From contig MFPR01000004.1 in assembly GCA_001784175.1 (NCBI GenBank), positions 248,001 through 312,000 of the forward strand: a stretch of DNA of 64,000 bases, written 5' to 3'. Numbering within the stretch: the first letter of the stretch is position 1; each line of letters opens with the position of its first letter. Below, piece after piece: positions 7,753-51,996 of this stretch. The DNA is from Candidatus Lindowbacteria bacterium RIFCSPLOWO2_12_FULL_62_27. Lineage in GTDB: Bacteria > Lindowbacteria > 2-12-FULL-62-27. The notes beneath the pieces were generated by a model. It searched no databases, was not told the DNA's origin, and was given only the letters and a program-made list of their open reading frames with translations. The position numbers were made by a program, and so were the translations under genes.

Positions 7753-8505
7753 ATGGGCCACCCTCACCCCGACCCTCTCCCGCCAATGGCGGGAGAGGGG
7801 GAGAGTAGCACGCTGATCATTCCGGCGCACAATGAAGCGCGGATCATCGAGGAATCGATCCGGGCCGTCCGCGCGGCCCTGGCGGGGTGCGGGCGGCCGT
7901 GGGAGATTCTGATCGTGGACGACGGGTCGACGGACGGAACGGCCGAGCGAGCGGCGGCGGCGCTCGGCGACGCCGGGCGCGTCGCGCGGCTGGCGCCGAA
8001 CCGGGGCAAGGCCGGCGCGATCGTGGCGGGCGTTCAGGCCTGTGTGACGGAGCGGCTCGTTTTCACGGATGCGGACCTGTCGGTGCCGCCGGAATTTTTC
8101 GAGCCGGCCGCCGCGAAGCTCGACGCGGCCGACGTCGTGATCGGCTCGCGGCACCTGCCGGGCTCGAGGCTGGTCCGGCGCCAGCCGTGGCTCAGGGAGC
8201 GGTGCGGGGAAACATTCCGTATTCTCGTCCAACGATTTTTTCTGCCGCAGATCACGGATTTCACGTGCGGCCTGAAGGGATTCCGGACCGCCGCCGCCCG
8301 GAAGTTGTTCGACGGCCTGGCCTGCCTCGACTGGACGTTCGACGTGGAGGTGCTTCTGCGGGCGGAGCGGGCCGGCCTGCTGATTGCCGAGATGCCGGTG
8401 TCGTGGATCAACCGGCCGGACTCGCATGTGCGGCTGGTCTCCGCCATTGCCGGATCTCTCCGGTCGCTGTGGCGGCTCGGGAGTATTTATGGCTGGAGGA
8501 GGTGA
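7753..8505 (+). CDS. Family 2 glycosyltransferase (DPM1/DPG-synthase-like)
   Basis: The GT-A fold is clear: STLIIPAHNEARIIEESI, the nucleotide-binding IVDDGSTDGT, the metal-binding TDADLSVPPEFF, then DVVIGSRHLPGSR and DFTCGLKGFR. There is no C-terminal membrane domain, which resembles soluble dolichyl- or polyprenyl-phosphate sugar synthases that charge lipid carriers for GT-C enzymes. Two starts are possible: ATG 7753, adjacent to the upstream TAG, or ATG 7786. The first 15 or so residues (rich in Pro and His) come from a palindromic repeat, so the ancestral start has probably been replaced. The last codons carry the ribosome site of the next gene. Confidence 0.85.
   Translation: MGHPHPDPLPPMAGEGESSTLIIPAHNEARIIEESIRAVRAALAGCGRPWEILIVDDGSTDGTAERAAAALGDAGRVARLAPNRGKAGAIVAGVQACVTERLVFTDADLSVPPEFFEPAAAKLDAADVVIGSRHLPGSRLVRRQPWLRERCGETFRILVQRFFLPQITDFTCGLKGFRTAAARKLFDGLACLDWTFDVEVLLRAERAGLLIAEMPVSWINRPDSHVRLVSAIAGSLRSLWRLGSIYGWRR
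7760..7806. repeat. Palindromic repeat family A/D at the start of the GT2 gene
   Basis: CCCTCACCCC-GACCCTCTCCCGCC is followed by a 3-base loop and GGCGGGAGAGGG. The same core occurs at 44660-44706 in the same orientation, and inverted at 24146 and 25539. It overlaps the first codons of the glycosyltransferase gene. Confidence 0.8.
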
Positions 8506-21707: not shown

Positions 21708-22497
21708 TGAAAGCACCTTCCTTTTTCAGTTCGAGATAAATGCTGCCGTATGGCGACGCTAATATTTTTTTTTCCTCCAGCAGGTCCGGCCGGCGCCGGG
21801 CTGTGCGGAGGATGGCTTCGCGGGCGCGCCATTTGAAAATCGCGGCGTGGTCGCCGCTGCGAAGCGTCTCCGGAATCCCGCGGGTTTCGAACGCGGCCGG
21901 GCGCGTGTACTGCGGATATTCCAGCAGCCCGCCGGGCATCGCGAAGGATTCCTCCGCGCGCGACGCCTCCTTGCCCAGAACGCCGGGCACGTACCGCGAC
22001 ACGGCGTCAATCACGGCCAGCGCCGCAATCTCGCCGCCGCTCAGAACGAAACTCCCGACCGAAATCTCCCGCGCGCCGATCACTTCCAGCGCCCGCTGGT
22101 CGATGCCCTCATAACGGCCGCAGAGAAGACAAATCCGGCCGGCGTCGGAGACGCCGGCACTTGGGGCGCCGGAGGCGCTGATCCGGCGGCGCGCGCTCAG
22201 CTCCTGGGCCATCCGGTCGTCAAAGAGTTCACCGGACGCCGACAGGGCCAGGACCACTTCGGTTCCAGCCGCGCAGTCCCGAAACGCTCGGACGATCGGT
22301 TCCGGCTTCATCACCATGCCCGGGCCGCCGCCGTAGGGCGTATCGTCGCACACGCGATGGGGACCTTCCGCATAATCGCGGATGTTGACCGGCGTAACGG
22401 AGATTCTCCCGTCCGCCACCGCGTTTCCCAGGACGCTCTGCGCCAATACCGCGCCGCGGAACATGTCGGGGAACAGGGTGAGGACGATCCAGTCCAT
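21682..22497 (-). CDS. trmD: tRNA (guanine-N1)-methyltransferase TrmD, with a repeat-encoded insert
   Basis: TrmD makes m1G37 in tRNAs and prevents frameshifting. The start [32 protein letters not shown], the knot motif [13 protein letters not shown], and [20 protein letters not shown] are all present. I start at ATG 22497, with AGAGGT eight bases upstream; a GTG at 22518 overlapping the rpsP stop is an alternative. Between AQELSAR and [10 protein letters not shown] there are about 18 extra residues (104-121, [16 protein letters not shown]). They are encoded exactly by a 55-bp palindromic repeat that also occurs at 39066-39120. The insert lies just before the cofactor-binding knot, apparently in a surface loop, and the reading frame is kept. 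Confidence 0.95.
22133..22187. repeat. Double-hairpin repeat family F inside trmD
   Basis: Two hairpins lie in tandem: GCCGGCGTC-GGA-GACGCCGGC and GGCGCC-GGA-GGCGC. The whole 55 bases recur inverted at 39066-39120 with two mismatches. Its right 23 bases (22165-22187) recur exactly at 16196-16218 in the phosphodiesterase gene. The length of insert it adds to trmD is 18 codons. Confidence 0.9.
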
Positions 22498-24113: not shown

Positions 24114-24145
24114 GTTCTTCTCTCACCTCCCGCCGGAAATCGTAT

Positions 24146-24262
24146 CCCCCTCTCCCGCCTTTGGCGGGAGAGGGTCGGGGTGAGGGTGGCAGTCTCAGGT
24201 CGTCGCCGTCCGCCCCCCTCACCTCAATCCTCTCCCCCCTTCGGGGGGAGAGGAAGTGAATA
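24146..24262. repeat. 117-bp direct repeat, left copy (family B/C)
   Basis: This element holds two hairpins (CTCTCCCGCC-loop-GGCGGGAGAG, and CTCTCCCCCC-loop-GGGGGGAGAG) joined by GGTCGGGGTGAGGGTGGC and a short spacer. It matches 25539-25655 almost base for base, in direct orientation. It runs into the 3' end of the PMT-like gene and encodes its last residues and stop. Confidence 0.92.
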
Positions 24263-25516
24263 GTCACCCGAAATCTCAACGCCGCGTTCGAAAAACAAAT
24301 TGCATTTCTGGCAGAACATCGAGTCAAACACCGGGCGCTTGTAGAAATTCAGCGCGGCCAGACAGCGCTCGTATTTGACGCCGATGCGCATCCCGACGGC
24401 GGCGGGATAAAAGAACATGAATAGGACGAGCGCGCAAGCCGGCAGCGCACCGGCCGCCCGCCGATACTTGTCCCACAGCCGGTCCAGACAGACGGCTTCG
24501 AGAAGACACACGAGAGGCAGGACCGTCAGGACGTAGAAAAAATACGTCGGGCGCGCCACGAACATCCATGGCACGTAGAGACAGAGCGCCGCTTCGAGGA
24601 TCAGCCGGCCGGCCGGTCCCGAGCGCGCGCCGATCCAGATAGCGGGCCCGGCCAGCGCGAAGACGAGCAGGTTCATCGCGCCCATCACGACCTCGGCGGC
24701 CTGCGGGTCCGGCATCAGGCGCGCGTAGTAGAGATGCTGCGGGACCGCGAACCACGTCCACGCCGGGGAACCGTTGTGGGGCGAGAGGGCCTCGGAGGTC
24801 TGATGATAGTGGAGGGCCCACCATTGCCATTGAAAGAGGTCGAGGGGCGCGTGGTTCAAAAAATAGGCGCCGTTGCCGATGACGTAAAAGACGATCATGC
24901 CCGCGAGGAACCGCGCGGATTTTTTCCACGCGCGGCTCACCGCCAGACGCGCCAGCGCCCAGGGGACCAGCCAGACACCGATCCATTTGGCGCTCAGGGA
25001 AAGCCCAAGCGCGGCGCCGGCAAGACCGATGGCGGCGCGGTCGCCGGAAATTCGATCGGCCAGGAAAAAATAAAGGGCGGCCAGCAGGAAGCCGAGGGAA
25101 ACCATTTCCGGAGAAATCATGCGCGCGTGGACCCACAGGAGGGTGTTGGAGAACAAAAGCAGGGCCGCCAGGACCGCCGCGCGGGCGCTCAGGAATCGGA
25201 GCGCGATCGCGTAGGTGGCGGCGAGCGCGCCGGCGCCGGCGAGGAGCGACGGAACGCGCATGCCGACAATCGGATCGAACCCGAGCATGGCGGTGAGACC
25301 CGCGAATACTCCCTGCAGGGTTTTGGACAGGAGCGGATGTTCGAGATTCATCTGCGGCCCGCCCGAAAAAATCTCCCACGCGGCCGATCGGTACCGGAGT
25401 TCGTCACCGGCGAAGCCGGCGAGAAAGCCGAGGTTGTGGCCGGCGAAGATCAGGAAGAGGCAGACCAGCGACAGGATGAATTTGTGGCGCCGGAACCTGT
25501 CGGCGAACAAGGTCAC
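24224..25516 (-). CDS. PMT-like GT-C glycosyltransferase (family 39), flanked by direct repeats
   Basis: This 430-residue membrane protein has about ten hydrophobic segments. The first external loop has AGFAGDELRYRSAAWEIF with the Asp-Glu pair, followed by NLEHPLLSKTLQGVFAG, hallmarks of dolichyl-phosphate-mannose protein mannosyltransferases. SLSAKWIGVWLVPWAL and NHAPLDLFQWQWWALHYHQT are also PMT-like. It likely moves a sugar from a polyprenyl carrier to a protein at the outer membrane face. The start is a GTG at 25516 with no clear ribosome site. The last 12 residues (SLPLPPKGGED) and stop are supplied by a repeat. The gene is bracketed by 117-bp direct repeats. Confidence 0.85.
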   Translation of the reverse strand: MTLFADRFRRHKFILSLVCLFLIFAGHNLGFLAGFAGDELRYRSAAWEIFSGGPQMNLEHPLLSKTLQGVFAGLTAMLGFDPIVGMRVPSLLAGAGALAATYAIALRFLSARAAVLAALLLFSNTLLWVHARMISPEMVSLGFLLAALYFFLADRISGDRAAIGLAGAALGLSLSAKWIGVWLVPWALARLAVSRAWKKSARFLAGMIVFYVIGNGAYFLNHAPLDLFQWQWWALHYHQTSEALSPHNGSPAWTWFAVPQHLYYARLMPDPQAAEVVMGAMNLLVFALAGPAIWIGARSGPAGRLILEAALCLYVPWMFVARPTYFFYVLTVLPLVCLLEAVCLDRLWDKYRRAAGALPACALVLFMFFYPAAVGMRIGVKYERCLAALNFYKRPVFDSMFCQKCNLFFERGVEISGDYSLPLPPKGGED

Positions 25517-25538
25517 AGAGAGAAACGGCTTTCAGCCA

Positions 25539-25655
25539 CCCCCTCTCCCGCCTATGGCGGGAGAGGGTCGGGGTGAGGGTGGCAGTCTCAGGTCGTCGCC
25601 ATCCGCCCCCCTCACCTCAATCCTCTCCCCCCTTTGGGGGGAGAGGAGGTGAATA
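25539..25655. repeat. 117-bp direct repeat, right copy (family B/C)
   Basis: Same sequence and orientation as 24146-24262, with only a few mismatches (for example TTT versus TAT in the first loop, and TCG versus TTTG in the second). The pair encloses one gene and could recombine to delete or amplify it. Confidence 0.92.
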
Positions 25656-25680
25656 GAAAGGCGAATAGATACGAGAAGAG

Positions 25681-39065: not shown

Positions 39066-39120
39066 GCCGGGTCAGCGCCCCCGGCGCCCCAAGTGCCGGC
39101 GTCTCCGACGCCGGCCGGAT
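39066..39120. repeat. Double-hairpin repeat family F, copy at a gene end
   Basis: These 55 bases are the inverse of 22133-22187 with two mismatches. The element holds the stop codon and the last 15 codons of the GT-C gene at 39072. Confidence 0.9.
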
Positions 39121-40850
39121 TCATCCGTGACCTTCAAGATAAATCGCGCGAAGGTGTCCTGGGGATCGAGGTCGATCGCGCGGGCGGCATGGGACCGCGC
39201 GGCATCCATGTCGCGCATCTGCAGCGCGCAGTAGGCCAGATTCGCGTGGGCACCGCGGCCTATATTTGGATCGTCCGCCACCCGCCGGTATAACTCCACA
39301 GCGCCCGACCACTGGCCCAAGTCTCTTCGAAGGTCGGCAAGCTGTCGAAGCGTTTCCGCGTCCGGCCGATACTGTCGCGCGGCGGACTCGAGCAATCCGG
39401 CCGCCGCGTTCAGCCGACCCTGCTGACGCAGGGCTTCCGCATAGTTGCCGGCCATGGTGAGCGCGTCTTGATCGGGGCGCGCCTGCGGCAGGGGAAGATG
39501 CGCGACCCATGCGGCCAACGCCATGACGGTGATGCCGGCCAGAAACCTCCGGTACGAACGGTCCAGAAGCCGATGGGACAGCCACACCACCGACGCGCCG
39601 GCCATCATCAAAAGGCTCGGGACCGCCGGCAAGCGAAACCGATAGCTCTGATAGAACAAGAGAACGCTGATGAAATAAACAAGCAAAAACCCGAGCGGCA
39701 AAAACCAGCGGCGGCCGGATACAACCGCAAGAAAAAATCCGATCGCGGCTAGGGGAAGAACGACCCCGATTCCGGCGAGGGGGAGGGACAACACGCGGCT
39801 CAGGCGCCGGCCGTAGCGGTAATCGCTGTTGTCCGGAGGCTCGTCCGCATTCCAGAACGCCAGCGCCTTCTTCGCAACCAGTTTCATCTGGCCGGCCGGA
39901 TCCGCGGCAATCTCGCGCGCGGCCTGGCGGGCCCAGTATCGGGACGATTCGCCGGCGGAAATCCGCCGGCCCAGATTCTGTTCGGCCATGCGCCTGAAGT
40001 CCCGATGTTCCGATTCGGGTCGCGCCGCGACAAACGGCGGGACGCTGTACCCGCCGCCGCCATCCTTGAGCGTGCCGATATACAGCAGTTGACCGCCGGA
40101 GGCTGTTGTCCAAATCCATTCTCCGGAGACGGCATAATTTCTGACGGAAATCGGCAGCACGGCCAGTAAGACGGCGGCCCCAAAAGACAGAGCACACAAA
40201 ACCGGCCGCCGACCGCCGGTCGACGGCCGGAGAATCCAGAGAACGGCGGGAACCGTCAGGAGCGCGGCATTCGGCCGAAGGTCTGTCGACAGACCAACGG
40301 CCACGCCGGCCAAGCACGCGATTCGCACCGAATCGGGACGGTCCACTTCCAGAAGCAACCTTAGAGCGAGGGTGTTGAGGAAGAGGACGAGGAATTCATT
40401 CTCGAGTGTTCCTTCCGAATAAATGAATATACCGTAAACTGCGGAGATCAATCCACCGGCCATGCCAGCCGCCGGGCCCGCGATACGGATGCCCGCGCGG
40501 CAGATGAGAGCGCAGGTGGCCGCGCCGATCACATGCTGGATCGCCTTCACGGCGGGCATGGAACCGCCTGTCAGTGCATGGAACAGCGCCAATATATACG
40601 GATACAATGGGCTCATCGAGAAAACTTCCTGACCCGCCAGCCAGTCTCCGGCGAGAATCGCGCGAGCTGTGCGAACATAGACGTCGGCGTCCAGAACGAA
40701 GACATCAAACAGGGGCGACCGGCGGGATTCGAACCAGTAGGCCATCCGAATCGCGAGCGCAAGGACGAAGACCGCGGCCGGGCCGTGACGTTGCAGCCAA
40801 GCCGACTCGCGCCCCTCCAAGTCGGAAGGCCGGTTATCGGCCGGTTTCAT
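39072..40850 (-). CDS. GT-C glycosyltransferase (family 39-like) with TPR C-terminus
   Basis: The 592-residue protein has about ten membrane segments, with acidic residues in the first external loop (DVFVLDADVYVRTAR) followed by FSMSPLYPYILALFHALTG, a GT39 pattern. From about residue 460 the protein is TPR-like (NLAYCALQMRDMDAARSHAARAIDLDPQD). Residues 578-592 ([15 protein letters not shown]) and the stop codon are encoded by the same 55-bp repeat that sits in trmD, so an Arg-rich tail has been added. The start overlaps the next gene by 17 bases. Confidence 0.8.
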   Translation of the reverse strand: MKPADNRPSDLEGRESAWLQRHGPAAVFVLALAIRMAYWFESRRSPLFDVFVLDADVYVRTARAILAGDWLAGQEVFSMSPLYPYILALFHALTGGSMPAVKAIQHVIGAATCALICRAGIRIAGPAAGMAGGLISAVYGIFIYSEGTLENEFLVLFLNTLALRLLLEVDRPDSVRIACLAGVAVGLSTDLRPNAALLTVPAVLWILRPSTGGRRPVLCALSFGAAVLLAVLPISVRNYAVSGEWIWTTASGGQLLYIGTLKDGGGGYSVPPFVAARPESEHRDFRRMAEQNLGRRISAGESSRYWARQAAREIAADPAGQMKLVAKKALAFWNADEPPDNSDYRYGRRLSRVLSLPLAGIGVVLPLAAIGFFLAVVSGRRWFLPLGFLLVYFISVLLFYQSYRFRLPAVPSLLMMAGASVVWLSHRLLDRSYRRFLAGITVMALAAWVAHLPLPQARPDQDALTMAGNYAEALRQQGRLNAAAGLLESAARQYRPDAETLRQLADLRRDLGQWSGAVELYRRVADDPNIGRGAHANLAYCALQMRDMDAARSHAARAIDLDPQDTFARFILKVTDESGRRRRRRHLGRRGR

Positions 40851-44605: not shown

Positions 44606-45985
44606 ATGCGTATTGTGACGAATTCTTTGGTGAGGGAGACGGAGGTCGACGATCGAAGCCCGCCACCCTCACCCCAGCCCTCTCCCGCCTCCGGCGGGAG
44701 AGGGAGGATACAGTTGCTATCGCTGCTGATGGCGATCCTGCCGTGCAGCCCTTCGCAGGCCGCCGGCGATACCGCGCCCGCGCCGATCGACCGGGCGGCG
44801 GCGTTTGCCGAGGCGAAACGGTTAATCGCCGCGAAGGATGCGCCGCAGAAGCTGAGCGGCGCGCGGGCACTCGATCTTTGGTCGGAGGCGGCGATCTCGC
44901 AGGCGACGCCGGTGTCCTTCAAGGACGATCTGCCCGCGTGGGCGGCGGCGCTGGGCTGGTGCGTGGATCGGCAAACGCGGCCGGCGGCGGCCGGCGGGGT
45001 TCAGTTTCGGCGGATTCTGTTCCGGCATTCCTGGCACAAGGAACTTCTTGCCGGGTTGCCCGTGTCCGACCGCAAGAGATGGGTGGAGGAGATGACGGCG
45101 CTGATCCACGCCGACACGCCGGTGGTCGAGCCATTTTTTTTGAGCACGATCTGGAGCCTGCCGTCCGCCGACCGGATGGAGGCCGTGCGGCGGCTGGGCG
45201 AGCGGCTGAACCGGACAAGTTCGCGGCTGCTCGTGGCCCTCACGCTCTACACGCTCGTGCCGCAGGAGACGATCGACGCCGCGCGAAAGCACTTGATGAT
45301 TCACACGACCGGCGGCAAGGAGATATACCGGGATCTCGTTTCGGAAATCAACTCGCTGCGGGTAGGCGGCGACATGGATGTCAGCCGTCCCCGCCCGCCG
45401 TCCGACAGGGATGTCGGACACCCAGGCGGGGACGATACTGAGGAAGCGCTGTGGCTGAAGGACGCGATCCGGATCGGGCTGCGGTCCGCGGCCGACCGGG
45501 AGCGCGCGGCGGCGATGGGCCGGGCGGTCAGGCTGATTGAAAGCGGGCGGCTTCCCGCCGACCTTGGGCCGGCGCTCGTCGACGGCGTGACGGGCGTCAT
45601 TGACCAAAAGACGTTGCCGTTGTTTGGCGCCGCCTACCGTCTCATGACGAGCCTGTACGAAGCGAAGGCCTGTTCCTTTGATCTTCTCCGCCGGCATCTC
45701 AAGACCGCCCTGCAATACAATCCCTTCGATCCCGAGCGGGGCGGGCGATACATCGATTTGAGGGATTCCCGATATTACTGGATTCTTTATGTCGGTCTGG
45801 CCGCCCGGGAACCGGTCCTGCCGCGGGCCGACCGGCTGGATCTGGCGCGGTCCCTCATGGCCGTCCCGGTGGACGAGCGTTACGAAGAGGATCTGCGCGA
45901 AGTGATGAAATCGATCGTATCGGCCGGACTCATCGGCAAGGCCGAATATGAGAGGTGGGCGGAGAAGCGAAAAATCGGGGAGTGA
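44606..45985 (+). CDS. Unknown exported protein with two repeat-encoded segments
   Basis: The 459-residue product has a hydrophobic core typical of a signal peptide at residues 38-54 (LLSLLMAILPCSPSQAAG), but an 18-residue head and a repeat-encoded stretch (residues 19-34, rich in Pro, Ser and Gly) precede it. The mature part is mostly helical, without a motif I recognise (AAFAEAKRLIAAKD, ALTLYTLVPQETIDAARKHL, MTSLYEAKACSFDLLRRHLKTALQYNP). A second repeat encodes residues about 254-276. Without these two inserts the protein would be about 420 residues. The start is uncertain because the repeat has entered the signal region. Confidence 0.6.
   Translation: MRIVTNSLVRETEVDDRSPPPSPQPSPASGGRGRIQLLSLLMAILPCSPSQAAGDTAPAPIDRAAAFAEAKRLIAAKDAPQKLSGARALDLWSEAAISQATPVSFKDDLPAWAAALGWCVDRQTRPAAAGGVQFRRILFRHSWHKELLAGLPVSDRKRWVEEMTALIHADTPVVEPFFLSTIWSLPSADRMEAVRRLGERLNRTSSRLLVALTLYTLVPQETIDAARKHLMIHTTGGKEIYRDLVSEINSLRVGGDMDVSRPRPPSDRDVGHPGGDDTEEALWLKDAIRIGLRSAADRERAAAMGRAVRLIESGRLPADLGPALVDGVTGVIDQKTLPLFGAAYRLMTSLYEAKACSFDLLRRHLKTALQYNPFDPERGGRYIDLRDSRYYWILYVGLAAREPVLPRADRLDLARSLMAVPVDERYEEDLREVMKSIVSAGLIGKAEYERWAEKRKIGE
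44660..44706. repeat. Palindromic repeat family A/D inside a signal region
   Basis: The same core as 7760-7806 in the same orientation: CACCCTCACCCC then CTCTCCCGCC-TCC-GGCGGGAGAG. It encodes the proline/serine-rich residues before the signal peptide core of the exported protein. Confidence 0.82.
45365..45431. repeat. Nested-hairpin repeat family G, copy 1 (in frame 1)
   Basis: The core is GTCCGACA-GGGA-TGTCGGAC, a perfect 8-bp hairpin. It is enclosed by an outer CCCCGCC/GGCGGGG stem and preceded by GGCGGCGACATGGATGTCAG. It matches 49776-49842 with few mismatches. The first base falls on codon position 1 of the host gene, encoding GGDMDVSRPRPPSDRDVGHP. Confidence 0.9.
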
Positions 45986-46021
45986 GTCTTCAATCAGGAA
46001 ATTCGTCAAGAGAAACGAGTC

Positions 46022-46180
46022 GGTAAACAGTGGAAACCATTGGACACGAACGGACACGAACGATCACGAACAGACACGAAAAAAACATTCTTCCAATGTA
46101 AAAATGTTCGAGTTCGTTCGTGTTCCAAGTTCGTGTTCGTTCGTGGCGGATGTTTTCTCCGCGCTTTACTGAGGCATTAC
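46022..46180. repeat. Dispersed palindromic repeat H, copy 2
   Basis: Counterpart of 2274-2410 in the same orientation, with an extra CACGAAC/GTTCGTG block in the arms. Its right end (GAGGCATTACG) holds the last four codons and stop of the GT-C gene at 46166. It fills most of the 180-base gap between the two genes. Confidence 0.82.
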
Positions 46181-47578
46181 GTCGAGTGACAGCCGGCCTT
46201 CCTCTGACGCCGGCAAGCGCGCACGGATGACGAGCGGGGTGAGCGGCGCCGTTTCTACGCCGTCGAAACCATAAAATTTCTTGATCACGCGGAACGCGTG
46301 CGGGAACAGGCGGTAGTTTTGGATTTCCGGATACACCGGCGACGCCGGATGGTAGTGGGCGACCTCGCGGGCGATTCTGATCTGCTCCGCCAGCGCCGGG
46401 CCGTAATGGATGGTCTGATTGCCGGCCGTCGTGTGGAGCGACCCGATGATGAATCCCAGCACGACGGCGAGGCTCGCCGCATAGGCGGCCTGCGCGAGCC
46501 GGCGGAACGGAATGGCGCTGAAAGCGACCCATAAGAAATAGAAGGAACAAATCCACGTGGCGTTGTAATAATGCGGATGGCCGTAGGTCCGGGTCAGGCC
46601 GTTGAGGAGGCACTGCGCCGCGAGCGCGGCGGCGCAGATGAGGGTAGCGTGGGATTCCGCATCGAGGTCTTCGCCGGTTTTCAACCGGGCCCAGACCCGG
46701 CGGGCCGCCTGCGCGATTCCCAGCCACACAAGCGGTATGGCAATCCATGTAACGGCGTGAAAAAAGGAAACCCAGCCGGCGGACGGCCAGCGTTCGCCCA
46801 GAAAATAGTCCATGTCAAAAGACGAAAAAAACCGGCCGCCCATGAGCGGAAACAGCCAGCCCTTCCATGGCGACCCTTCCTGCAAGACCGTTTCGGGTTG
46901 GCCGGAGAACACCTTCATGAGGTAGGGAACCGTCAGCAGGCCCGATACCAAAACGATGCCGGGAAGGTTCGCGCCGCGCACGCGCAGCCGGGCCCTCTGC
47001 GCCCATGCGAAATGCGCGACCACCGCCACAATCCAAGGGACGCTCATGAGATGCGTGAGGAACATCCCCGTCAGCGCGAATCCCGCCAGCCACAATTTCC
47101 ATGCGGTGGGCCGAACGCAAAAAGCAAGATACGCGGCGGCGGACAGCGCCGCCAGCGGGATGAGAAAGGGATTGTCCCAGAGCTGGCGATGGTACAGCCA
47201 GAGACAGGGCGAAAGGAGCGCCAGCGCGCCGGCGGGCGGATCAAGCGACCGGCAGAGGGCCGCGATCCAGACGAGCGCGACCGCCGTGATCAGCGTCATC
47301 AGGAGCGCCTTCAGCCGCACGAGATCCACGAGGTCGTCCGTCACGTGGAGGAGCGCGGTGTAGGTCCAGAGCGGAAACGGGCCGTACAGAATGCCGCGGG
47401 AACCCATGAGGCCGTGGGACGGGATCATGCCCGACTCTTTGCAGAGCATCGCCAGTTCGACGAGTTTCGGTTCGTCGTTGATCCAAGGCGCGTCGCCCGG
47501 CCAGATCAGCGGGACAAGCCCGAGGATTGCGAGAAGCAGAATCAGGATCGAAAGCGAAAAACGGCGACGGGCGTCCAT
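46166..47578 (-). CDS. GT-C glycosyltransferase (family 39-like)
   Basis: The 470-residue protein has about ten membrane segments. The first external loop holds WPGDAPWINDEPKLVELAMLCKESG, with the acidic pair, then GILYGPFPLWTYTALLH, a family 39 pattern. GHPHYYNATWICSFYFLWV is unusual for the family. I choose ATG 47578; a longer frame to 47638 runs into the upstream gene region. The last residues (VMPQ) and the stop come from repeat H copy 2, so the natural C-terminus may have been lost. Confidence 0.8.
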   Translation of the reverse strand: MDARRRFSLSILILLLAILGLVPLIWPGDAPWINDEPKLVELAMLCKESGMIPSHGLMGSRGILYGPFPLWTYTALLHVTDDLVDLVRLKALLMTLITAVALVWIAALCRSLDPPAGALALLSPCLWLYHRQLWDNPFLIPLAALSAAAYLAFCVRPTAWKLWLAGFALTGMFLTHLMSVPWIVAVVAHFAWAQRARLRVRGANLPGIVLVSGLLTVPYLMKVFSGQPETVLQEGSPWKGWLFPLMGGRFFSSFDMDYFLGERWPSAGWVSFFHAVTWIAIPLVWLGIAQAARRVWARLKTGEDLDAESHATLICAAALAAQCLLNGLTRTYGHPHYYNATWICSFYFLWVAFSAIPFRRLAQAAYAASLAVVLGFIIGSLHTTAGNQTIHYGPALAEQIRIAREVAHYHPASPVYPEIQNYRLFPHAFRVIKKFYGFDGVETAPLTPLVIRARLPASEEGRLSLDVMPQ

Positions 47579-47691
47579 GGAAGTCTCGTTTATCAAACTT
47601 GGGAACAAAAACCCAGCATGACTTTCCATCGGCCGCATTTTCGACCCTGTGGGACTCGACTCAGGGAGCCGTTCAAAGTTATTGTGCGGGC

Positions 47692-50259
47692 GTGGTCAAA
47701 TGCATCGCGATCTTTTGCGGGATGGCGATATGGCTCTACGCCGAGGGCGGCGCGGCCGGCGCGGATCCGACCGGGTATCTGAGGGCGGACGGGCGGCGGC
47801 TGGTCGACGAAGACGGCGAAACCGTGATGTTGCGCGGGATCGGCGTGAGCCGCGCGCCCGGGTTGGACATCATCCGCGCGCGGGAGGATTTGCTCAAGGC
47901 CGCCGCGCTGGGCGCGAACAGTGTCCGGCTGGATATCGATCCCTCGTGGTTCGCGGGCGACACCGCGCCCGGGGCGTTTGATTTCATCGACTCGTTTGTC
48001 ATGGTCGCCGCGCGGCAGAATCTCCGTGTGATTCTCAGCATGGACTGGCGGCCGGCCGACGACTTCACGGACGAGCCCGGCTGGGAGGATCCGGAACAGC
48101 AGGAGGAACTGGTCGGGCTGTGGATGACGATCGCGCGGAGATACCGGGACCGGCCGGAGATCGGCGCGTACCAGTTGATCCGGGCGCCGGCGCCGGAGAG
48201 CGCGCGCGAGTATGCGTTTTTCATTCAATATCTGATCGACAGCGTCCGGGAGGCCGACACGGAGCACCTGATCCTGGTGTCGGAGCCGAAAACCGGGAAC
48301 GGGCTATTTGAATTTGACGGCGTGCAGCTTGTCTATCCCATCGACCGCAACCTCGCCTACACGTTTTCGGAGTACGAGCCTGAAGCGTTCACGCGCCAGG
48401 GGCTGGACGACCGGCCGGAGGGGATTGTCTGGCCGGGAGACATTGTGGTGTCGGTGACGGAACTAGGCGAATGGAGCCGCCGGGCGGTTCAGGACAGCGT
48501 CAAGTCCACGCCGCTGAAGATCGAAGCGATCGCGCCGGATCACGCCGACTACGTCGCGCCCCGCGTCTACGTGCTGGGCGTCGGCCGCGGCCGGTTCGAG
48601 CGGATTTTGCTGGAGGAGGTGGCGGTCTTCCAGCGCGAGCCGGGCGACCTGCCGATTTTCAGCGACACCTTCAGCGCGATCCAGTCCCTCTGGCACATCG
48701 ATCCTCCGGGGGGTCGTGTCATGCTGGAACGCGGCGCGGCGGCCGGGGAGGGAAGCCTGATTCTCGAATCAAAAGGGACGATGCTTACCGCACAGCCATT
48801 CACGCCGCTGGACGCGCGGCGCATTCCCAAAGCCACGGTGAACCGGCGGTACCGGCTGACCGCGCGCGTATACGCGGGCGAGACGGCCGAGGCGGGAATC
48901 GGGCTCGTATTTTTGAGCGAGGACAAATATTTTTCAGAACCGCGGGACCTGCGCGCCCGCCTGCAGGACCGCATCGAATGGTCGCGAAAGGCGAACGCGC
49001 CGATTTTGCTCACGGAGTTTGCCGCGCCGAAACACGCGCCGGACCACATGGAAATTCAATGGATGAATGCGGTGGTCAGCGCGTGCGAGACCTACGGCGT
49101 GTCGTGGCAGTACCGGACGATGCGCGAGTACGATGATCCGGCGAGTCTGTCCGACCGGCAGGTCTACGGCTTGCTCTTCGGCCCGGCGGACGCCCCGGCC
49201 GACAGTTTCACCGTCTGGCCGGAACTTCAGAATTTTCTCCTGCAATCCTACAAAGTCCATTCGTTCGCCGAGGAGACTTTGAAGCTGGTCGAATCGCATC
49301 TCGCGGAAGGATCGCCGGCCAATCCGGTTTCGCCGCCGGCCGCCGGCTGCTGGGTCGGCGCGCAGGTTCAGGATTCCCCGCTGTCGGCGGCGCCGGCCGG
49401 GACGTTCGACGCCATCATGGACATGACCCGCAAGCTGGGCCGGCTGCCCGCGTGGGTACCGGTGTTCCGGCCCTGGGCCAACGCGCCGGGAGAATGGACG
49501 GCGTTTCCGGAGGATCATTTCCGGGACATTTCCGCGGGCGGGTCCACGCCGTTTCTGACCTGGGAGTCGCGCTGGGGTCTCGGCGAAATTTCATCGGCGA
49601 TGGTGCTGGAAGGATACGCCGACACGTACATCCGGGACTGGGCCGACGCCGCGCGCCGGTACGGGAAACCGTTTCTTCTCCGGCTCACGCGCGGAATCGA
49701 ATCGTCCGCCTACCGGCACGTCCAGAGCATTTTTGACGCGAGGGGCGTGACGAATATTTCGTGGATGTGGTCGCCGGCGGCGACACGGAGGTCAGCCGTC
49801 CCCGCCCACCGTCCGACAGGGATGTCGGACGCTCAGGCGGAGGCGGTGACGAGCGCACAGGACACGACGCATGTGGAGGACTTCGACTGGCCGTGGGATT
49901 CGCGCGTGGACTGGATCGGCCTCGGCGTCTATGACCGGCCGACGCCCGGCGGCGACGGCGAGGCAGAAGGCTTATTTCCGGCGGCGGAGGTCCGGGCGCA
50001 GGTGGACGCGGTCCGGAAATTTCACACGCCGATCTGTCTGGCCGAAATCGGCTGCGAGTCCATCCGGGGCCAGGCCGAATGGTGGGTCGACGCGCTACGG
50101 AAACTTCAGACGCCGGACCTCGCGCCGATTCGCGCGATCGTGCTGATGGAAAGCCCGCTGTTCGGCGGCGCCGCGCAGGCGGATTTCACGTTACGCAGCG
50201 GCAGCCTCTACTTCATCCACAAGGAACTCGCCAACCCGTATTTCGTGGGCGGGGACTAG
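47692..50259 (+). CDS. Secreted two-module glycoside hydrolase-like protein (GH5-like + GH26-like)
   Basis: The 855-residue protein starts at GTG 47692 with a signal peptide (IAIFCGMAIWLYAEGGAAGA). Residues 25-500 resemble a GH5 cellulase: GYLRADGRRLVDEDGETVMLRGIG, then AALGANSVRLDID, with a likely nucleophile E442 in LLTEFAAPKH. The usual Asn-Glu-Pro acid/base motif is replaced by IRAP (residues 163-166), and a beta-rich insert lies between. Residues 545-850 resemble a GH26 mannanase: PFLTWESRWG, GYADTYIRDWADAARRYGKPFLLRL, ISWMWSP, VDWIGLGVYDRP and a likely nucleophile E785 (LAEIGCES), but the HEMN motif is absent. Activity is doubtful in both modules. Repeat G encodes residues about 695-717. 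Confidence 0.75.
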   Translation: MVKCIAIFCGMAIWLYAEGGAAGADPTGYLRADGRRLVDEDGETVMLRGIGVSRAPGLDIIRAREDLLKAAALGANSVRLDIDPSWFAGDTAPGAFDFIDSFVMVAARQNLRVILSMDWRPADDFTDEPGWEDPEQQEELVGLWMTIARRYRDRPEIGAYQLIRAPAPESAREYAFFIQYLIDSVREADTEHLILVSEPKTGNGLFEFDGVQLVYPIDRNLAYTFSEYEPEAFTRQGLDDRPEGIVWPGDIVVSVTELGEWSRRAVQDSVKSTPLKIEAIAPDHADYVAPRVYVLGVGRGRFERILLEEVAVFQREPGDLPIFSDTFSAIQSLWHIDPPGGRVMLERGAAAGEGSLILESKGTMLTAQPFTPLDARRIPKATVNRRYRLTARVYAGETAEAGIGLVFLSEDKYFSEPRDLRARLQDRIEWSRKANAPILLTEFAAPKHAPDHMEIQWMNAVVSACETYGVSWQYRTMREYDDPASLSDRQVYGLLFGPADAPADSFTVWPELQNFLLQSYKVHSFAEETLKLVESHLAEGSPANPVSPPAAGCWVGAQVQDSPLSAAPAGTFDAIMDMTRKLGRLPAWVPVFRPWANAPGEWTAFPEDHFRDISAGGSTPFLTWESRWGLGEISSAMVLEGYADTYIRDWADAARRYGKPFLLRLTRGIESSAYRHVQSIFDARGVTNISWMWSPAATRRSAVPAHRPTGMSDAQAEAVTSAQDTTHVEDFDWPWDSRVDWIGLGVYDRPTPGGDGEAEGLFPAAEVRAQVDAVRKFHTPICLAEIGCESIRGQAEWWVDALRKLQTPDLAPIRAIVLMESPLFGGAAQADFTLRSGSLYFIHKELANPYFVGGD
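49776..49842. repeat. Nested-hairpin repeat family G, copy 2 (in frame 2)
   Basis: Same element as 45365-45431, with about six mismatches. Here the first base is codon position 3 of the host gene, so the same DNA is read as RRSAVPAHRPTGMSDAQ. The outer stem is partly worn (GGCGGAGG for GGCGGGG). Confidence 0.9.
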
Positions 50260-51686: not shown

Positions 51687-51770
51687 CGTCACCCCCGCGA
51701 AAGCGGGGGTCCAGTCGCCGTATCCGAGCGGGGGACAGCTTCTGGATTCCCGCTTTCGCGGGAATGACGG
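51687..51770. repeat. Interspersed repeat I, copy 1
   Basis: CGTCACCCCCGCGAAAGCGGGGGTCCAG and CTGGATTCCCGCTTTCGCGGGAATGACG form two hairpins that also pair with each other at their ends. This is a widely seen type of intergenic bacterial repeat. The gap 51673-51996 holds only this, its second copy and no gene. Confidence 0.88.
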
Positions 51771-51856
51771 GCGGGACATGTCAGACATTATCTGCTCTCC
51801 TTAGTAAGGGGTTTCCAGTCTGGGTGTCGGGTATTTCTGCTCCCCGTAGTAATTCT

Positions 51857-51965
51857 CGTCACCCCCGCGAAACCTGTCCCAGCATGTCGTAAGCGGCGAG
51901 CGGGGGTCCAGATACCCGTATCCGACTCGGCTGCTGCCTGGATTCCCGCTTTCGCGGGAATGACG
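51857..51965. repeat. Interspersed repeat I, copy 2, with a 28-bp insert
   Basis: Same element as 51687-51770, but the first hairpin is split by about 28 bases (CCTGTCCCAGCATGTCGTAA and following) between CGCGAAA and CGGGGGTCC. It lies just 3' of the adenine deaminase gene. Confidence 0.85.
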
Positions 51966-51996
51966 AGTGAAACACTACACCCGCCGCCCTCCCTGC

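Follow-up and report, generated by a model that had tools for sequence, protein, structure and literature searches.

Protein-embedded mobile elements are best known from Rickettsia. The stretch of DNA analysed here (the window, 64,000 nucleotides at G000:C4:248001-312000, part of the 4.39-Mb draft genome G000, the host genome) contains two closely similar short segments inside two open genes, and the question that it raises is whether these segments belong to the encoded proteins or are copies of a DNA element that entered both genes and, if so, what kind of element this is.

Two copies of a two-hairpin segment in the window

The first segment lies in a gene at 44606-45985 (+ strand), which has a GC3 of 0.80 over its open frame and encodes a 459-aa protein with no Pfam match; no orthologue was found in G001 or G002, two other genomes of the same bacterial family that belong to different genera from the host genome. 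The second lies in a gene at 47692-50259 (+ strand) encoding an 855-aa protein. This second host had been described as GH26-like, but PF00150 (GH5 cellulase) scores in its N-terminal part, at residues 38-236, and no GH26 match was found. Compared directly, positions 45365-45434 and 49776-49845 agree at 63 of 70 positions (90% over 70 nt). The two copies are located where the original prediction placed them, but its extent of 67 bp with about six mismatches had to be revised, as the alignment of all copies defines a shared core of 66 bp, at 45368-45433 and 49779-49844 (both +), with seven mismatches between the two. The GGC to the left of each core (45365-45367 and 49776-49778, both +) is host flank, and at the first copy it fits the C/element/G target rule described below. 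The host gene at 44606 does read the first copy from codon position 1, as GDMDVSRPRPPSDRDVGHPGGD, and that at 47692 the second from codon position 3, as ATRRSAVPAHRPTGMSDAQAEA, with both frames open and free of stops; peptides such as SAVPAHRPTGMSDAQ would be expected within host proteins.

The segment had also been proposed to be a palindromic element, and its hairpins were recovered; folding, however, resolves two adjacent hairpins rather than a single palindrome. On the + strand of the first copy, hp1 (GGCGACATGGATGTCAGCC) occupies 45368-45386 and hp2, with the outer stem GTCCCCGCC/GGCGGGGAC, occupies 45387-45433, both on the evidence of folding and covariation, and within hp2 both pattern search and folding place an inner hairpin, GTCCGACA-GGGA-TGTCGGAC, at 45400-45419. 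On the same strand of the second copy, folding places hp1 (GGCGACACGGAGGTCAGCC) at 49779-49797 and hp2 at 49798-49844, with an inner hairpin at 49811-49830 that was also located by pattern search. This plan is common to all units considered here: hp1, a short stem with a GGA loop, is followed by the longer, nested hp2, composed of an outer stem GTCCC...GGGAC and an inner hairpin with an AGGGAT-like loop. A 16-sequence alignment contains five pairs in which both sides have changed, a number reached in 0 of 500 shuffles, and slid controls gave at most two such pairs; copy C5 has three inner pairs swapped and, by eye, one outer pair. Chance is excluded as the source of the hairpin repeat, because only 0.04 occurrences of the hairpin pattern are expected in the window and the genome holds 12 copies, with E values of 4e-21 to 3e-29.

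The window carries further repeats. Copies of a palindrome, CCCTCTCCCGCC..GGCGGGAGAGGG, lie at 7757-7799, 24132-24174, 25525-25567 and 44662-44704, and since the last of these falls within the N-terminal part of the first host gene, this gene may start further downstream. Repeats of CTGGATTCCCGCTTTCGCGGGAATGACG at 51742-51778, 51938-51974 and 51687-51721 have the look of CGTC-type REPs and belong to another family than the double-hairpin element. An inverted pair of 56 bp (22132-22187 and 39066-39121), 96% complementary and with two hairpins bearing GGA loops, is possibly another double-hairpin repeat. Two direct repeats are also present: one of 70 bp and GACACGAACG type (2304-2373 and 46053-46122; 93% identical, 43.7 kb apart) and one of 127 bp (24146-24272 and 25539-25665; 94% identical, 1.4 kb apart).

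In-frame copies in protein genes and their junctions

The pattern seen in the window extends to the genome as a whole. In the host genome, 12 copies match the family consensus at 90-99% identity, all in open frames, in several different frames and mostly in recognisable genes, and there are four diverged copies, two obtained by sequence search and two, both coding, with covariance model R1, which also yielded one tRNA-side copy. Named from NCBIfam or from sequence, the hosts in this genome include an AddA/RecB-like helicase with two 66-bp inserts, an N-acetylmuramoyl-L-alanine amidase with one 66-bp insert, GspD (insert in a linker), a sigma-54 NtrC-type regulator (between the AAA and Fis parts), a CBM48-like repeat protein (two inserts), a hybrid histidine kinase (at the N-terminus), the hydrogenase maturation protease HyaD (at the C-terminus), a PurC-like protein (at the gene start), a ferredoxin-like protein, ribosomal protein L13 (at the C-terminus) and a PilM-like protein. 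The true stop of the HyaD and L13 hosts, and the true start of the histidine kinase and purC-like hosts, may lie elsewhere; the purC-like gene has no in-frame start codon upstream of its copy, so the element there may provide or precede the start.

All 12 close copies are exactly 66 bp long, as are five diverged copies (one of them from G002), and in two diverged 66-bp copies an internal one-base loss is cancelled by a one-base gain. The 66-bp consensus is open in all three sense frames and in one antisense frame. Coding copies may run with or against the gene that contains them, and those of the host genome are read from sense position 1, from sense position 3 or in the open antisense frame, which yields three unrelated peptides. 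Because the frames differ between copies, what is conserved is the DNA and not the peptide.

A 78-bp relative gave approximately 45 matches in G002. We read 40 copies of this type, 39 from G002 and one from the host genome, and the length is 78 bp in all 40. Among the 39 G002 copies, 26 lie within frames of at least 150 residues with a strong GC3 signal, and the frames in use comprise sense frames 1, 2 and 3 and an antisense frame. Their hosts in G002 include LeuRS, ValRS, RecF, CobD, PDH-E2, a GDH, two histidine kinases, SMC, RecG, a thioredoxin-reductase-like fusion and AddA, where the 78-bp insert (L334, G002:C146:46542-46619) occupies a site distinct from the two 66-bp sites of the G000 orthologue.

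Comparison of orthologues supports the proposal that the segments were inserted. In the second host gene of the window, the insert had been located after W-S-P, and the G002 orthologue lacks the segment, running from VTNVSWVWSP directly into SDAP. At both AddA sites the segment is absent or shortened in the G001 and G002 orthologues, and the same holds for the amidase in G002. AtpG presents the reverse case: a 66-bp copy is present in G002 alone, and G000 and G001 have the short form. Furthermore, sequence alignment to PDB chains, by which these inserts were placed, reveals extra residues in AtpG, PDH-E2 and LeuRS; in PDH-E2, residues 102-126 stand against a single residue in the solved chain. 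As the orthologues compared are approximately 35-70% identical and the sites are often variable loops, individual insertions are supported rather than proven base for base. Summed over many unrelated genes, these sequence comparisons leave little doubt that the segments are insertions.

The junctions are equally regular. In G000 the element follows a C in 12 of 12 copies and precedes a G in 11 of 12; in the 78-bp set a C stands before it in 39 of 40 copies and a G after it in 36 of 40, with a second G in 33 of 40. With GGC both closing the element (...GGC) and, in most cases, preceding it as the left flank, a 3-bp GGC target duplication and a C/G target preference would look alike here.

Relatives at tRNA genes and terminators, and the probable mode of spread

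Covariance model R1 also produced unexpected matches at tRNA 5' ends. We surveyed the flanks of 142 tRNA genes in the three genomes for perfect hairpins with a stem of at least 5 bp and a 4-base loop. In these modest numbers, the loop is TCCA in 7 of 14 hairpins near the tRNA 5' end and GGGA in 11 of 19 near the 3' end, a bias that is absent from a control zone 68-110 nt from the tRNAs. The element abuts either end of tRNA genes without interrupting them, and these non-coding relatives measure 78 to 82 bp. Model R2, built exclusively from tRNA-type copies, matches the first window copy in the correct register (E 2e-4) and leaves the second unreported; the former match ties the tRNA-type and coding types together. 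Among 19 strong R2 matches, nine adjoin a tRNA, five follow a terminator T-run, four are in tandem with another element and one is unassigned, and hp1 is the hairpin nearest to the edge at all these tRNA and terminator junctions. The 66-bp element is one subfamily within a larger group of double-hairpin units, which adjoin tRNA genes and terminators as well.

At five loci (L050, L052, L342, L285 and L291) a partial or full second unit, either an extra hp1 or a tandem hp1-hp2, stands right behind the element, which suggests repeated insertion at the same edge. An array of some 25-30 tRNA genes (L161, G000:C27:1563-5296), on a 93-kb contig of phage- or plasmid-like character, bears the element on hardly any of them. 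G001 has its own shorter two-hairpin repeat, GGAACATGGATGTTCC + GTCCCGGCC..., near gene starts (L277, L280 and L283).

Among the genomes sampled, the wider family is restricted to one bacterial family. At E<=0.001, R2 matches all three genomes of that family and none of 238 others, in a search whose stricter filters may have passed over weak matches. The tRNA-type pattern matches 11 times in G000, twice in G001 and 11 times in G002, and once in a viral contig; lone matches with one or two mismatches in 9 of 383 other genomes, these nine being unrelated, were judged to be chance. The one occurrence of the exact core pattern in a collection of genome contigs, an intergenic hairpin in a Syntrophomonadaceae MAG, lacks the rest of the element and was considered coincidental. 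One match in G035 covers 34 nt only. Searches of a plasmid collection with the 78-bp query and of a phage collection with the 66-bp query gave no match, and Rfam returned nothing above the gathering score, with one chance match below threshold.

Taken together, these data lead us to assign a probability of roughly 0.87 to the reading that both segments in the window derive from a mobile element that is non-autonomous, measures about 66 bp, is recognised by its structure, consists of two adjacent hairpins and resembles the Rickettsia palindromic elements (RPEs) in behaviour. Such an element would be spread by an enzyme acting in trans, which would recognise the hairpins, probably on single-stranded DNA, and join the element at a C/G junction. 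Copies that land in genes would persist when they are in frame and at positions that tolerate extra residues, for example linkers, loops and termini, where read-through would add a peptide of 22 or 26 residues; with a length divisible by three, and with three sense frames and at least one antisense frame open, coding insertions would need no correction. The leading candidate for the enzyme, albeit a weakly supported one, would be an HUH/Y1 transposase of IS200/IS605 or RAYT type, whose action in trans on single-stranded hairpins would explain the conservation of the hairpins, the fixed junction and the insertion at stem-loop feet. A broader proposal, which we hold as plausible if somewhat short of an even bet, is that the units form a distinct bacterial double-hairpin superfamily, mobilised by an enzyme still to be described, that inserts at stem-loop bases (tRNA acceptor ends on either strand and terminator T-runs) and at GC/GG sites in genes, and in which coding subfamilies of codon-multiple length (66 and 78 bp) evolved repeatedly.

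If a RAYT (REP-associated Y1) transposase were the mobilising enzyme, the units could simply be REP sequences or REPINs whose presence inside genes is a side effect. The high copy number of short hairpins would fit, as would the C/element/G junction with no obvious target duplication, which agrees with HUH chemistry; intragenic REPs have been described (PMC3733652), and Y1_Tnp matches number 8, 6 and 10 in the three genomes (24 in total). However, the unpaired GTAG or CGTC tag with a CCA tail is absent: in the 66-bp element a CGTC is found where hp1 meets hp2, but it is mostly paired there and is missing from most tRNA-type copies. Moreover, none of the 20 Y1_Tnp loci examined among the 24 matches has an adjoining element, and we regard this explanation as unlikely.

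The copies at tRNA genes and terminators might instead be functional RNA elements, serving end processing, protection or termination, from which the coding copies escaped as duplicates. Both the covariation of the stems and the exact abutment to tRNA ends and terminator T-runs, always with hp1 proximal, are what such a function would produce. In contrast, a strict cut finds the element hairpin at only 12 of 76 tRNAs in G000, 9 of 28 in G002 and 0 of 38 in G001, the same tRNA species may have the element on the other side, or not at all, in a sister genome, and the coding copies stand in both orientations relative to the gene. On balance a functional origin appears improbable.

Spread could also have proceeded by template switching or gene conversion between hairpins at replication, with no dedicated enzyme. 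A 69-kb stretch of the 4.39-Mb genome contains six of the 12 close copies (a density reached in 0 of 20,000 random placements), two genes hold two copies each, and neighbouring copies resemble one another slightly more than copies do on average (permutation p 0.04). This clustering hints at local spread or, alternatively, at a region of tolerant genes, and quasi-palindrome repair would also account for corrections in the stems. Yet a specific recognition step is needed to explain the fixed junction and the exact length at dozens of distant sites, and also the directional way in which units abut tRNA ends, so that spread with no dedicated enzyme is quite improbable. Finally, the encoded peptides are polar and rich in Pro/Gly in every copy, but the idea of a peptide motif, conserved or selected as a domain or linker in many proteins, can be dismissed almost entirely, as the same DNA gives unrelated peptides in sense frames 1 and 3 and in the antisense frame and orthologues lack the segments.

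Comparison with known systems

A structure-recognised mobile element has relatives in behaviour among several described systems, and the original comparison with Rickettsia, drawn from in-frame palindromic insertion into unrelated genes in different frames, proved apt at the level of behaviour. RPEs are palindromic repeats found in frame within conserved protein genes, and also in RNA genes, with several subfamilies per genome (PMC2229807, PMC3767692), and in-frame palindromic insertion in conserved protein genes is likewise found in the new family. The two are set apart by description: the RPE unit is approximately 100-150 bp long and forms one long stem-loop with terminal inverted repeats (PMC2229807), whereas the new units are 66, 78 or about 80 bp long, have two hairpins and occur in another lineage. 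Furthermore, RPE inserts are reported inside the genes for tmRNA and M1 RNA, whereas the new family adjoins tRNA genes without interrupting them. Intragenic palindromic repeats have been described outside Rickettsia (PMC3733652, PMC2229807), so in-frame intragenic behaviour is not unique in itself.

GTAG/CGTC REPs, including REPINs, share with the new family the form of short hairpin repeats in many copies, and in-frame intragenic copies are reported in several species (PMC3733652); unlike them, the new family has no unpaired tag with CCA tail, combines two unlike hairpins per unit and, among the 20 Y1_Tnp loci, exhibits no RAYT linkage of the kind known for GTAG-type REPs. The two-hairpin plan is shared with the double-hairpin elements (DHEs) of fungal mitochondria, which PMC10085805 and the Allomyces work cited there present as two adjacent hairpins, presumed mobile and located between genes or in rRNA genes. 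Those dispersed units are mitochondrial, whereas the new family resides in a bacterial genome, as indicated by GspD, bacterial tRNAs and ATP synthase genes. Bacterial MITEs such as ERIC, NEMIS and RU-2/YPAL are small non-autonomous repeats that have been fused in frame to genes (PMC2229807), but most of these carry terminal inverted repeats and target duplications, whereas the ends of the new family, GGCGAC.../...GGGGGC, are not inverted repeats and there is no TA duplication. As had been surmised for the sequence, we found no known family with the same sequence or plan.

The family is RPE-like in behaviour and is not a shown member of any named family. Its same-plan subfamilies, clear junction and non-coding relatives at tRNA genes and terminators make both movement and selection for codon-multiple length directly testable, and its inserts carry a warning for annotation, as the odd stretches of 22 or 26 residues in proteins of this lineage are not functional domains. 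With dozens of in-frame insertions in two genomes, reaching aminoacyl-tRNA synthetases, SMC, RecF, RecG and the ATP synthase gamma subunit, it stands beside Rickettsia as a second rich example of mobile DNA that survives within important proteins.
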